Below, in pieces: positions 53,083 to 57,896 of a DNA stretch of 64,000 bases. Under the pieces are notes generated by a model. The model ran no database searches. It was not told where the DNA came from and saw nothing but the letters and a program-made list of their open reading frames with translations. The position numbers were made by a program, and so were the translations under genes. Source of the DNA: Streptococcus dysgalactiae subsp. dysgalactiae (GTDB lineage Bacteria; Bacillota; Bacilli; Lactobacillales; Streptococcaceae); NCBI RefSeq assembly GCF_900459225.1, contig NZ_UHFH01000003.1:154501-218500 (forward strand), in the 5' to 3' direction. Every line of letters starts with the position of its first letter. The first letter of the stretch is position 1.

Positions 53083-54606
53083 ATGACCGATGCTAGTAAA
53101 CTTTTTACCAAGCAACAATGGAGAGAGCTTGAGTTAATCGCCTACTTAACGGAACATTCTGAAAGAATAGGGCATAAAGATAGTGACTTGTGTAAAGTGT
53201 TAGGCAGTTCATTATCAACCTTGCAAGCCTGTGTTGCCAACTTACAGTTTATAGATTCTGTGGGAAGTATCACCTATGAAGAAGGTTACCTGACCATCGA
53301 ATATAATGATCATTGTGGTTTGCAAGAGGTCTATCAAAAGGCCATGAGAGAATCTCAATCATTACAGTTGTTATCAACCTTGTTTTTTAAAGAATTTGGA
53401 TCTCTAGAGGAATTGGCGGAGGAGTTGTTTATCAGTTTATCAACCCTTAAGCGATTAATCACAAGAACCAACAGTTATCTCAAAAAAGAGTTTGGCATCA
53501 AAATTTCGACAAGACCCGTTATGGTGATTGGGGATGAACATCAAATTCGTTTATTTTACCTCAAATATTTTTCGGAAGCCTACACAATTTCTGAGTGGCC
53601 TTTTGAAGACATCGTGAATCAGAGCAATCTGGAGCGATTGATTACTTTGATGGGCAAGCAAACAGACGTGACCATCGATTTTGCTCTGTTTCAACACCTT
53701 AAGGTTTTAAGCAGTGTTAACTTGATTCGTTTTTATCAAGGATTTGCCATTAATCGAAAAGATAAAGGCTTGGGGCATCTCTTTGTAGAAGCCTTAAAAG
53801 ATTCCTTAGAGATGAAGGATCTCTCCTCTTTGTTTGTCTTGAGATTTGATATCCCCTTGGAAGAAACAGCCCTCTCAGAAATCTTTTCCAACTACCTTAA
53901 TGACGGCTTAGAGTTAGGACCCCTCATGCAATTAAAAGGTGAGAAAAAAGAGAAGGAAGCGCCTGTCCGTAATATAGTGTCTTGGATTTCACTGTTAGAT
54001 GACATGGAAAGAACATTAACATTAAGCATTTCCAATAAATACGACCTTGCCAGACGTCTTCAGAACACGATTATCCTTGAGGAAGAAGTGATTAGCGCTA
54101 ACTTTTTAATCTATAATTATAAAAAAGAATATCTCAAGTACTTTTACAAGCATTACCGCGTAATCTATGAAACTTTTGTCGCCTATTCAAGTGACCTGTT
54201 GGTATCAGAAGATCAAGAGATCAGTGAGAGAACCATGGAACATCTCCTGTATTGCTTGTTCATCACCTGGGAAAATATTTTTTTAGAAATCAGTCAATCA
54301 AGGCATAAATTGAAACTACTAGTCATTGAGAAAAGCTACAGTAATGTTGCCAACTTTTTAAAACGCTATTTCGGGGAGTTCTTTGACATCACAAGTTTTA
54401 ACGAACTTGGAGAACTAAAGATTGACCAGACCTACCTGACTCAGGAGTATCATGTGATAGTCACAGACATCATCCTTAATCAGCAGGAGGACTCAGAAGT
54501 GCTCTTCTTTAGCCAGATGATTCCTAGTGTCATCGCTCATAAATTAAATGCTTTTTTGAGAGTGAGAATCAATGAAGAGAAACAATTTAGTCATTTAAAA
54601 GTTTGA
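53083..54606 (+). CDS. Mga-like virulence regulator
   Basis: 507 residues matching the Mga family. N-terminal DNA-binding region with two helix-turn-helix segments (around residues 24-45 and 98-130, LAEELFISLSTLKRLITR). Then PRD-like segments (HLKVLSSVNLIRFYQG) and a C-terminal EIIB-like part. Mga regulators activate adjacent surface-protein genes in response to sugar phosphotransfer. The M-like gene directly downstream makes it the likely local activator. A ribosome site (GAAAGGACGAGATG) precedes the ATG. Confidence 0.9.
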   Translation: MTDASKLFTKQQWRELELIAYLTEHSERIGHKDSDLCKVLGSSLSTLQACVANLQFIDSVGSITYEEGYLTIEYNDHCGLQEVYQKAMRESQSLQLLSTLFFKEFGSLEELAEELFISLSTLKRLITRTNSYLKKEFGIKISTRPVMVIGDEHQIRLFYLKYFSEAYTISEWPFEDIVNQSNLERLITLMGKQTDVTIDFALFQHLKVLSSVNLIRFYQGFAINRKDKGLGHLFVEALKDSLEMKDLSSLFVLRFDIPLEETALSEIFSNYLNDGLELGPLMQLKGEKKEKEAPVRNIVSWISLLDDMERTLTLSISNKYDLARRLQNTIILEEEVISANFLIYNYKKEYLKYFYKHYRVIYETFVAYSSDLLVSEDQEISERTMEHLLYCLFITWENIFLEISQSRHKLKLLVIEKSYSNVANFLKRYFGEFFDITSFNELGELKIDQTYLTQEYHVIVTDIILNQQEDSEVLFFSQMIPSVIAHKLNAFLRVRINEEKQFSHLKV

Positions 54607-54795: not shown

Positions 54796-56112
54796 ATGGC
54801 TAGAAATAACACAAACAAACAGTATTCACTGAGAAAACTGAAAAAAGGAACTGCCTCAGTAGCTGTTGCTTTGAGTGTCTTGGGAGGAGGGTTGGTTGTT
54901 AACACAACTGAGGTTAGTGCACAACCTGTTACTCGTAGAATGCTTGCAGATACAGATTCAATGTTAGAAAGGGTTAACGGCTTAGAAACTGAAAATCATC
55001 GCTTAAAAAATGAAAGTGAAAAATTAACCACTGAAAATGAAAAGTTGAAAGCAAATCTTGAAGATGCAATGGATGTTGCAGGAAGAGATTTTAAAAGGGC
55101 TGAAGAACTTGAAAAAGAAAAAGTTACATTAAATGCCCAACTTGAAGAGTTAACAAATCAAAATGTTAAATTAGAAAAAGACCTAAAAGAGGCTGAGTTA
55201 AATTACTTTGATCTTGCTGATGTTCAAAATCAAATTCGTAAGAATCTAGAAGAAGAGAAAGCCAGACTTACAGAAGAGAAAGGCAGACTTACAGAAGAGA
55301 ATAAAATCTTAGACATTAGCCGTAAGGGCACACGCCGTGACCTTGAGGCAGCACGCAAAGCTAATGAAGCAGCCAAAGAGGAGATTGCTAAAGCTAACGA
55401 AGAAAAAGCAATCCTTAAACTTAGCCACAAAGGTGTAAGTCGTGACCTTGAGGCGGCACGTAAAGCTAATGAAGCTTCTAAAGAAGAACTTGCTAAAGCT
55501 AACGAAGAAAAAGCGATTCTAAAACTCAGCCATAAAGGTGTCAGCCGTGATCTTGAAGCTCTAAGAAAAGCTAAGAAAGAAACCGAAGCAGCCCTAGCAG
55601 AAGCTACCGCTAAAGCTGAAAAACTTGCAGAAGACAACAAGATCTTAGACATTAGCCGTAAAGGCACACGCCGTGACCTTGAAGCAGCACGTAAAGCTAA
55701 CGAAGCAGCGAAAGCTGAAATCGAAAGCTTGAAAGCCCAATTAGCAAAACAAGCTGAAGAAATTGCTAAATTGAAAGAAGCTAAACCAGAAGTTAAACCA
55801 GAAGCTAAGCCAGAAGTTAAACCAGAAGTTAAACCAGAAGCTAAGCCAGAAGTTAAACCAGAAGTTAAACCAGAAGCTAAACCAGAAGCTAAGCCAGAAG
55901 CTAAACCAGAAGCTAAGCCAGAAGCTAAACCAGGTACTGTTGCAAAAGCAGCCCAAGCAGGTAAAGCAGCGGTCGCTAAACCTGAAATGAAGAAAGCTAA
56001 TAACCAATTGCCATCAACTGGCGAAGTTGTTAACCCATTCTTCACAGCAGCAGCGCTTGCGGTTATGGCAACAGCTGGTGTAGCAGTAGTCGCAAAACGT
56101 AAAGAAGACTAA
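54796..56112 (+). CDS. M-like surface protein
   Basis: 438 residues. The YSIRK-type signal peptide (YSLRKLKKGTASVAVAL) is cleaved near EVSA, about residue 42. A variable helical N-terminal part follows, then heptad-rich coiled coil, four C-repeat-like units (from about residue 169), a Pro/Glu/Lys wall-spanning region and the sortase signal LPSTGEVVNPF with a hydrophobic span and KRKED tail. It should form a fibrillar coiled-coil dimer on the wall and bind host proteins; the ligands cannot be read from sequence. AAGGAG precedes the ATG. It lies right after the Mga-like gene. Confidence 0.92.
   Translation: MARNNTNKQYSLRKLKKGTASVAVALSVLGGGLVVNTTEVSAQPVTRRMLADTDSMLERVNGLETENHRLKNESEKLTTENEKLKANLEDAMDVAGRDFKRAEELEKEKVTLNAQLEELTNQNVKLEKDLKEAELNYFDLADVQNQIRKNLEEEKARLTEEKGRLTEENKILDISRKGTRRDLEAARKANEAAKEEIAKANEEKAILKLSHKGVSRDLEAARKANEASKEELAKANEEKAILKLSHKGVSRDLEALRKAKKETEAALAEATAKAEKLAEDNKILDISRKGTRRDLEAARKANEAAKAEIESLKAQLAKQAEEIAKLKEAKPEVKPEAKPEVKPEVKPEAKPEVKPEVKPEAKPEAKPEAKPEAKPEAKPGTVAKAAQAGKAAVAKPEMKKANNQLPSTGEVVNPFFTAAALAVMATAGVAVVAKRKED
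55300..55710 (+). repeat. C-repeat-like units of the M-like protein
   Basis: Four copies of a unit containing ILxxSxKGxxRDLEAxRKA begin near 55306, 55411, 55516 and 55642. The spacings are 35, 35 and 42 residues, all multiples of seven, so the coiled-coil phase is kept. Units 1 and 4 (DISRKGTRRDLE) resemble each other more than units 2 and 3 (KLSHKGVSRDLE). Confidence 0.85.
55786..55932 (+). repeat. Pro-Glu-Ala/Val-Lys repeat of the wall region
   Basis: A 12-base unit encoding PEAK or PEVK is repeated about a dozen times, with alternating Ala and Val codons. Such tracts change length readily by slippage. Confidence 0.9.
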
Positions 56113-56175
56113 GTCTTCTTATAGCGTAAAACAGGTTTTTATCACCTGTAGTGAGGAAGATAAAAGCTAAACCTA

Positions 56176-56207
56176 AGAGAGAATCAAGATTGATTCTCTC
56201 TTTTTTG
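56176..56207 (+). terminator. Terminator of the M-like gene
   Basis: Perfect 11-bp stem AGAGAGAATCA/TGATTCTCTCT with a 4-base loop and T-tract. Confidence 0.88.
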
Positions 56208-56365: not shown

Positions 56366-56392
56366 CTATTGATATTGATGACATGTCAATAG
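56366..56392. promoter_or_regulatory. Inverted repeat CTATTGA-N13-TCAATAG
   Basis: Perfect 7-bp arms, ending 10 bases upstream of the -35 box of the histidine-triad gene. Size and place suit an activator or repressor site. Confidence 0.45.
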
Positions 56393-56402
56393 CTTTAAAC
56401 AG

Positions 56403-56431
56403 TTGACAGTGGGTATTTCTTTTGCTATTAT
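56403..56431 (+). promoter_or_regulatory. Promoter of the histidine-triad gene
   Basis: -35 TTGACA (56403-56408), exactly 17 bases, -10 TATTAT (56426-56431) with an extended TG. Near-consensus and expected to be strong when not repressed. Confidence 0.75.
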
Positions 56432-56441
56432 GGGTATATGG

Positions 56442-56453
56442 TTAACCAGTTAA
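56442..56453. promoter_or_regulatory. AdcR-type zinc operator TTAACCAGTTAA
   Basis: A perfect match to the streptococcal AdcR consensus TTAACYRGTTAA. It lies about 10 bases downstream of the -10 box, over the expected start point, where bound AdcR would block transcription in high zinc. Confidence 0.75.
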
Positions 56454-56486
56454 TTATATAAAATGCTATAATATAAGGAGTTATTA

Positions 56487-57839
56487 ATGAAAAAGAAACA
56501 TGCTGCTCAATACTCTCTACTCATTCCAGCTGCTTTAATGGCCGCTGGTTTAGCGATGTCAGCTAACGGATCAGTTGCCTTTGCTGAAGAATCAGCACCA
56601 GTGGATAGCCACGCTGTGGTGCAACCCAAAGCTGAAGCGACTAAAGATGTTGCAGATAAAGCGAGTCAACCGTTACCTAAGGCTGCTGAAGCTGTTGCAA
56701 AAGAAGCAGAAGCTGCAAAACCTGCTGCAACAACTGCACAGCCTGCTCCTGAGGCTAAACCAGCAGCAGAAGCTGACGTTGCCGCTAAAAAAGCGCATAT
56801 TGCTAAATATGCAGGTGTATCAGTAGATAAGATTCAACTATTGGATACTTCAGAAGGTAAGGCGTTGATGTACCCACACGGCGACCATAATCACGTTGTT
56901 TTATTAGATAAGATTGATCTTTCTAAACCATTTGATGATGGACATGGTGATTCTCATCACCATCATCATGACCATGTGATCAAGGGAGATTTTACCTTTA
57001 CAGCTACAGTAACAGATCCTGCAGGTAAGGTATTGTCTGGTAAAGACGTTCAAGTGGTAGATACAACAGGTGAACGCAAAACGCTTGCAACTGTGAAGAC
57101 TGATGCAAAGGGACAAGCTGTTTTTGAGAAGCTTCCTTTAGGTCGCAGCTTAACAGTTCTTGTAGATGGCGTTGCTCAGGGGTATACTTTACGAACTGGT
57201 GTTGATGGCGACAAGCGCTCATCTAGTTTTACAGTTGATGGTAAAGGAACAGTTGAACCAGAATATAGTAAGACACCGTTAGTTGTTGTTGCTCTTGATG
57301 AGTCAGCAGAACCTCTAGCTGGACAAGAAGTTGTTTTGAAACATAGAACAGGTCGCTTGGTAGAGACAGTAGTGACAGGAGCTGACGGAAAAGCTGTATT
57401 TTCTAAAGGTCTTTTAGATGGCACTTTGTATGACATTTTTGTTAATGGTAAAAAATTATCTGAAGCAATGACAGGGGCAGAACGTAGTGTTTACCTAGAT
57501 GCTAAAGACATCAAAAAACCAGGTTCAGAAACAAAACCAGAAGCGCCTAAAGTTCCATCTAAGCCAGACGTTAAACCAGAAGCGCCTAAAGTTCCATCTA
57601 AACCAGAAGTTAATTCAGAAACAAAACCAGAAGCACCTAAAGCTCCATCTAAGTCAGGTACTGTTGTAAAAGCTGATCAAGCAGGTAAAGCAGTAGTCGC
57701 TAAACCTGAAGTGAAGAAAGCTGACAACCAATTGCCATCAACTGGCGAAGTTGTTAACCCATTCTTCACAGCAGCAGCGCTTGCGGTTATGGCAACAGCT
57801 GGTGTAGCAGCAGTTGTAAAACGCAAAGAAGAAAACTAA
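56487..57839 (+). CDS. Histidine-triad, Cna-B-like LPXTG surface protein
   Basis: 450 residues. Signal peptide to about residue 33 (cleaved near AFAEE), an Ala/Lys/Pro-rich linker, then a single streptococcal histidine-triad unit (IAKYAGVSVDKIQLLD ... YPHGDHNHVV). A His-rich loop follows (GHGDSHHHHHDH). Two β-sandwich repeats come next (about residues 170-255 and 260-345, each with a TDAKGQAVF or TGADGKAVF signature), resembling transthyretin/Cna-B domains. A Pro-Lys-Glu wall region ends in LPSTGEVVNPF. The His cluster should bind zinc. Transcription is likely zinc-repressed through the AdcR-type operator. Host ligand unknown. Confidence 0.85.
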   Translation: MKKKHAAQYSLLIPAALMAAGLAMSANGSVAFAEESAPVDSHAVVQPKAEATKDVADKASQPLPKAAEAVAKEAEAAKPAATTAQPAPEAKPAAEADVAAKKAHIAKYAGVSVDKIQLLDTSEGKALMYPHGDHNHVVLLDKIDLSKPFDDGHGDSHHHHHDHVIKGDFTFTATVTDPAGKVLSGKDVQVVDTTGERKTLATVKTDAKGQAVFEKLPLGRSLTVLVDGVAQGYTLRTGVDGDKRSSSFTVDGKGTVEPEYSKTPLVVVALDESAEPLAGQEVVLKHRTGRLVETVVTGADGKAVFSKGLLDGTLYDIFVNGKKLSEAMTGAERSVYLDAKDIKKPGSETKPEAPKVPSKPDVKPEAPKVPSKPEVNSETKPEAPKAPSKSGTVVKADQAGKAVVAKPEVKKADNQLPSTGEVVNPFFTAAALAVMATAGVAAVVKRKEEN

Positions 57840-57863
57840 GAATTGGTCTTATTCCAAAACCAA

Positions 57864-57896
57864 ACAAACTAGCTTTTATGAGCTAGTTTGTTTTTT
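57864..57896 (+). terminator. Terminator of the histidine-triad gene
   Basis: Perfect 11-bp stem ACAAACTAGCT/AGCTAGTTTGT with a T-tract. Confidence 0.88.

Follow-up and report, generated by a model that had tools for sequence, protein, structure and literature searches.

Streptococci probably display a family of twin-domain surface proteins when zinc is short, as the promoters of this family across the genus suggest. Our starting point is a gene for a 450-residue, sortase-anchored protein in a 64,000-nucleotide stretch of the genome of Streptococcus dysgalactiae subsp. dysgalactiae (the window), whose function the sequence evidence narrows to that of a probable zinc-starvation surface protein with a probable wall-side zinc site. 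Zinc starvation ranks among the main defences of the host, and the usual streptococcal answer to it is the Adc importer together with histidine-triad proteins. An anchored family under the same switch, most of whose members have no zinc motif, points to a zinc signal that also determines what streptococci display at their surface, and the putative family-wide AdcR control is the result that we consider most worth following. This AdcR-linked twin-domain LPXTG family appears to be new here: a literature search across titles and the beginnings of abstracts returned no description of the 450-residue protein or of AdcR control of its family.

The gene, its promoter and its protein

The features of the locus, in window positions, are as follows.

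53083..54606, + strand: neighbouring Mga/AcpB-type regulator, context only
54796..56112, + strand: neighbouring M-like YSIRK/LPXTG protein, context only
56175..56202, + strand: terminator-like hairpin after the M-like gene
56403..56431, + strand: sigma-70 type promoter, TTGACA-17 nt-TATTAT with TG before the -10, 11/12 matches
56403-56408, + strand: -35, TTGACA
56426-56431, + strand: -10, TATTAT
56442..56453, no strand assigned: perfect AdcR box, TTAACCAGTTAA, starting 10 nt downstream of the -10
56487..57839, + strand: gene of the 450-residue sortase-anchored protein (ORF)
56487..56585, + strand: signal peptide, about residues 1-33, by sequence reading alone without a signal-peptide program
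56763..56933, + strand: histidine-triad (HTP) module, residues 93-149, by homology and structure model
56877..56894, + strand: HxxHxH triad HGDHNH, residues 131-136
56955..56969, + strand: run of five His, residues 157-161, in a linker of low model confidence
56979..57245, + strand: transthyretin/CnaB-like domain 1, residues 165-253, without a strand-A lysine
57273..57506, + strand: transthyretin/CnaB-like domain 2, residues 263-340, by structure model and fold search
57732..57746, + strand: LPSTG sortase signal, residues 416-420
57862..57893, + strand: terminator-like hairpin after the gene of the 450-residue protein

The preliminary description of this DNA had pointed out a near-consensus -10 with a perfect AdcR consensus just past it. 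The box is exactly where it was placed, and the -10, the single triad, the five-histidine run and the LPXTG anchor are present as well. The promoter is the best of five promoter-like sites between 54600 and 58100 (the mean in shuffles is 5.4), and since the box begins 10 nt past the -10, it probably covers the transcription start. Eight terminator-like hairpins were found in the region, compared with 3.6 in shuffles, and the two at 56175-56202 and 57862-57893 suggest that the gene has a transcript of its own.

The encoded protein consists of a signal peptide, an Ala/Lys/Pro-rich stretch, one histidine-triad module and two transthyretin-like domains, followed by a Pro/Lys-rich wall region that precedes the LPSTG anchor. 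The C terminus matches Gram_pos_anchor (PF00746, E=1.3e-12, 47.9 bits against a cut-off of 20) and has the LPXTG motif, hydrophobic helix and charged tail of a sortase anchor. A domain-model search gave no YSIRK row for the protein, and M and Scl models match it only in the C-terminal part, from residue 320 onward. Around LPSTG, 85 bases (57726-57810) are identical to the end of the neighbouring M-like gene (56002-56086), and this identity likely reflects gene conversion. The closest named relative is an S. dysgalactiae protein (P0002, 92% identity over its length). Two further proteins, 93% and 89% identical, are labelled S. agalactiae (P0003 and P0004, TPA records on short contigs), which suggests either transfer or mislabelled assemblies.

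Homology to other HTP modules upholds the earlier reading of a histidine-triad module, yet PF04270 gives it 13.5 bits against a cut-off of 27, and no TIGR01363 row was returned for the protein at E<=1; judged by its homologues, it is a divergent HTP module. Within the same genome, it comes closest to triad four of a Slr-like protein (36% over 64 residues; E=1e-12 within a three-protein set, without composition correction), and it is also homologous to the modules of long multi-triad proteins. Four such long proteins (L047, L048, L049 and L050) hold several near-identical YPHGDHDH module copies, which evidently arose by duplication. The structure model gives the module a helix plus three strands, and among PDB entries it matches PhtD (9p1v) at E=8.4e-5, as a sum of stretches of which none passes singly, and PhtA (2cs7) at E=0.48. 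We gathered 27 distinct modules by the motif [YF][PV]HxxHxH, so that their three histidines are invariant by selection, and several are repeats within one protein; in 26 of them, the position 15 residues past the motif start is D or E. In the part of the source consulted, zinc is bound in a PhtD fragment by H83, H86, H88 and E63, and NMR shows the fragment handing zinc to AdcAII (PMC3842936). The place of E63 is Ala in our protein by hand alignment and, because no Glu stands there, D144 can be put forward only as a guess for the fourth ligand. We infer zinc binding by the module with less assurance than AdcR binding and a zinc response of its gene.

Two beta domains had been expected after the triad, and the structure model places them at about residues 165-253 and 263-340, with ten-residue pLDDT means of 86-97 from 171 to 340; the overall mean pLDDT of 66 (57 in a first model) and pTM of 0.48 make their relative placing uncertain. 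By model and fold search, both have the CnaB/transthyretin-like fold, with matches to MSCRAMM B-type and pilin domains. These matches are single beta-sandwich domains that name no function, and the searches barely probed the HTP module; the matches in a viral structure library, 34 of them with E<=0.001, are beta-sandwich proteins of phages and other viruses, and we read them as evidence of fold only. In CnaB domains, the isopeptide bond is made by a lysine on the first strand (strand A). Here, the corresponding place reads FTFTATVT, and the strand-A columns of 14 relatives contain no conserved lysine (in pair 2, one K at each of two columns). Thus, the fold of the Cna-B assignment stands but the strand-A lysine is missing, no canonical isopeptide bond is expected, and we reject an isopeptide-stabilized CnaB stalk.

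AdcR boxes in the genome and across the family

The genome contains an adcR gene (NF038251, 230 bits against a cut-off of 175) with an AdcR box of its own, in line with the AdcR control that had been proposed. The box is stated as TTAACNNGTTAA in the consulted part of PMC11580457. This loose pattern alone is no evidence, since it occurs 16 times in the 2.15-Mb genome compared with 13 times for the reversed control, which is no real excess, whereas the strict pattern TTAACYRGTTAA occurs 13 times compared with 4 for its control. By our reading of the neighbours, 11 of the 13 strict sites precede genes of zinc-regulon type: adhP, adcR, the gene of the 450-residue protein, a broken histidine-triad gene, adcA and the genes of an Lmb-type protein, a divergent flavoprotein/ammonium-transporter pair, AdcAII plus Htp, a NikA/opine-like ABC protein and a Slr-like LRR protein, the last preceded by two boxes. 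The other two sites, at a phage-like gene and on a 4.3-kb contig, fit no such gene. NCBIfam cut-offs are passed by AdcR, AdhP, Htp and, in its triad part, the Slr-like protein; the remaining names, in part those of the nearest models below cut-off, are putative. Several of these classes are also classes of the S. agalactiae AdcR regulon, for which the part of the report at hand names AdhP, an ammonium transporter, a flavoprotein and an opine/nickel-type ABC system, together with histidine-triad and LPXTG proteins (PMC11580457).

Three boxed or triad-bearing sites deserve separate mention. On the 4.3-kb contig (L005 2074-2085, G000:C2:4073), TTAACTAGTTAA precedes an ORF that begins with a likely signal peptide and runs off the contig end; at position 2003 of L008 (G000:C3:365002), a perfect AdcR box lies before a histidine-triad gene seemingly split into several frames; and at L012 3025-3483, an Lmb/AdcAII-like gene is followed by a short Htp-like ORF of 152 aa with a single triad.

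The combination of triad and domain pair recurs in four further loci, as the preliminary description had thought worth looking for in other pyogenic streptococci. The five species loci, from a genus search and a scan of named contigs, are those of the window genome, genome G037 (close to proteins named S. equi subsp. zooepidemicus; its protein and P0007 are not identical), S. didelphis, S. ovuberis and Streptococcus sp. S784/96/1. All five encode a His-rich linker as well as the triad. Because all five also keep a perfect box 3-10 nt past the -10, with varying central bases, zinc-dependent AdcR repression of the gene is very likely; S. ovuberis and Streptococcus sp. S784/96/1 have an additional one-mismatch box overlapping the -35. 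The proposed insertion into the M-protein locus was seen in the window genome alone: tblastn with the Mga-type and CpdB proteins of the window gave no hit at E<=1e-3 within the 10-22 kb examined around the four other loci, where the sequence available for S. didelphis and S. ovuberis is short on one side. By ORF reading, the S. didelphis gene lies near a boxed opine/nickel-type ABC operon, that of G037 near transposase-like genes, and the other two by folate genes.

A family profile from alignment A2 of 14 relatives, to which the window pair scores 246.8 bits (genus search E=2.3e-80), found the domain pair in 22 of 284 Streptococcus genomes. Across 395 genomes of the order, from 80 genera, the pair occurred in 5 genomes of the single genus Streptococcus, with no family member outside it at E<=1e-20. 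By our own count, the 22 genomes hold 26 copies, and 23, the gene of the 450-residue protein included, have a perfect box within 300 nt upstream, against an expectation of 0.03 copies calculated from the 154 boxes (control pattern, 75) that occur over about 46 Mb, with genome sizes rounded. Four of the 22 genomes (G049, G074, G136 and G207) show no excess of perfect boxes over the control. In copies with an assigned ATG, the distance from the start of the box to that ATG is 14-73 nt; the box lies about 293 nt upstream of the second G037 copy and, in G155, inside a start that was mechanically called too long, 50 nt upstream of the likely ATG, whereas in G010 and G207 distance was taken from the match edge instead of the start codon. 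The copies without a perfect box are that of G049, which has none, and two decayed copies with one-mismatch boxes at rpsP-rimM, in the window genome and in G016. That in the window genome is a second twin-domain copy, interrupted by stops (G000:C3:876882-878092; L052, L075); a full-length S. dysgalactiae relative of it exists (P0126, 153 member sequences), and S. didelphis has an intact copy at rpsP-rimM (L053).

The triad is present in 5 copies and absent from 19, the two decayed copies being left unscored. Triad-free here means lacking HxxHxH, with two fragments included and L053 and L054 among these copies; triad-free members of the family come from S. porcinus, S. catagoni, S. didelphis and S. 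dysgalactiae, among others. The histidine count is 0-7 in 18 of the 19 and reaches 24 in L040, where some of these residues lie in the linker that joins the two pairs. With the decayed copies counted, 18 of 21 triad-free copies carry the box, and two of the three that do not are decayed. On the basis of these counts (23 of 26 copies boxed, 5 with a triad and 19 without), it is the domain pair rather than the triad that appears to form the core of a family of surface proteins under AdcR control. As triad-free relatives have the same box, the box goes with the twin-domain family, and regulation and triad cannot serve as independent pointers to one role, as had been argued. Furthermore, zinc capture cannot be the common function of the family, given that 19 of the 24 scored copies are triad-free.

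In a tree of 42 pairs, each triad-bearing protein's second pair, or its only one, groups with those of G049 and of the S. suis protein P0136 (support 96/87), the S. suis-type G049 copy having neither triad nor box; 15 of the 19 triad-free proteins of the tree have two full pairs. One gain of the histidine module plus a later loss is the simplest reading, and separate gains may also account for the pattern.

Candidate roles of the protein

The explanation that we favour, and hold to be rather probable, is a zinc-repressed, sortase-anchored surface protein whose triad module and His run bind Zn(II) for the importer. With zinc plentiful, Zn-AdcR on the box at 56442-56453, near the transcription start, would block a strong promoter; in zinc shortage, AdcR would leave the box, and the protein would be secreted and then linked to the wall. 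The twin domains, as the family core, would act as display stalk or ligand-binding part, and the single triad module and His run would bind Zn(II) at the wall, raising its local concentration for the AdcA/AdcAII-AdcBC importer. This supply step is modelled on a proposal for PhtD, and the hand-over itself is a weakly supported part of the scheme. The module below the Pfam cut-off, the presence of just a single triad, the departure of G049 from the pattern and the four genomes whose perfect boxes do not exceed the control all speak against this explanation. A rival explanation is that the box is a chance palindrome and no AdcR operator; the loose pattern hardly exceeds its control, the strict pattern has control hits of its own (4) and 2 of its 13 sites are at unlikely places, but the box holds the same place in the triad-bearing loci of five species and recurs across the 26-copy family, and we reject chance origin on this conservation and these counts, leaving it scarcely any credence.

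Possible, though to us doubtful, is an adhesin induced by zinc starvation. On this view, the box would do no more than time its display, a host ligand would be bound by the twin domains, and the His module would have a structural part, such as that of a zinc-dependent clasp or ligand site, with no role in zinc supply. The box of the triad-free copies, the fold matches to MSCRAMM B-type and pilin domains, and the collagen I binding of Slr, an HTP and LRR protein (PMC3105044, in the part consulted), fit such a protein. However, the same fold also serves as a mere stalk, the ligand is purely putative, and triad and His-rich linker occur together in all five triad-bearing loci; for the preliminary label of adhesin, we find nothing beyond fold and anchor. 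It is improbable that a true Pht/Htp protein (htp I or II) shed most of its triads and acquired an anchor. The module is indeed homologous both to triad four of the Slr-like protein and to the modules of multi-triad proteins, but a single triad, the want of an LRR match, PF04270 below cut-off and TIGR01363 without a row at E<=1 weigh against it; curated models and the pair tree, which places the protein among twin-domain LPXTG proteins, disfavour simple Pht membership. Speculative, and given a small chance, is a genus-specific class of AdcR-repressed, wall-anchored twin-domain proteins in which the pair does the zinc-starvation job, for example by docking a host zinc carrier at the wall, and the triad module was added in one subclade as a zinc relay; there it would remove the metal from the carrier or retain it, so that receptor and relay are united in one chain.

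Comparison with known systems

CnaB/SdrD B-type and pilin domains carry the strand-A lysine for their isopeptide bond, whereas the twin domains described here do not. The triad-free relatives share the homologous domain pair and, where complete, the anchor, and differ in having mostly two full pairs and no triad. AdcR-regulated, sortase-anchored proteins are not without precedent, as one such LPXTG protein, S. agalactiae sak_RS04480, is published (PMC11580457, in the part consulted); it has AdcR control and LPXTG in common with ours, a likeness at the level of description. Corynebacterium diphtheriae has zinc-regulated wall proteins with sortase signals, ZnuG, CmrA and CmrA2, and ZnuG, again compared by description, also has a zinc-binding motif, HxD/HxH rather than HxxHxH (PMC12445094, in the part consulted).

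Streptococcal histidine triad proteins (Pht, HtpA, Sht; Slr, Blr, HtpS) are divided into htp I and htp II in the consulted part of PMC3603884. The 450-residue protein has the HxxHxH module, the AdcR box in the promoter and the surface location in common with Pht/Htp proteins, and differs from them in its one triad, its LPXTG anchor, its twin transthyretin-like domains and a module below the Pfam cut-off. Its domain rows include no LRR family, the C-terminal mark of htp II, and it has LPXTG where Slr, a known htp protein, has a lipobox and no LPXTG (PMC3105044, in the part consulted). The claim of an architecture unlike known Pht proteins therefore holds for both groups, and the histidine-triad subgroup adds a third architecture to htp I and htp II, one that would show whether the triad works when anchored to the wall, away from the membrane.
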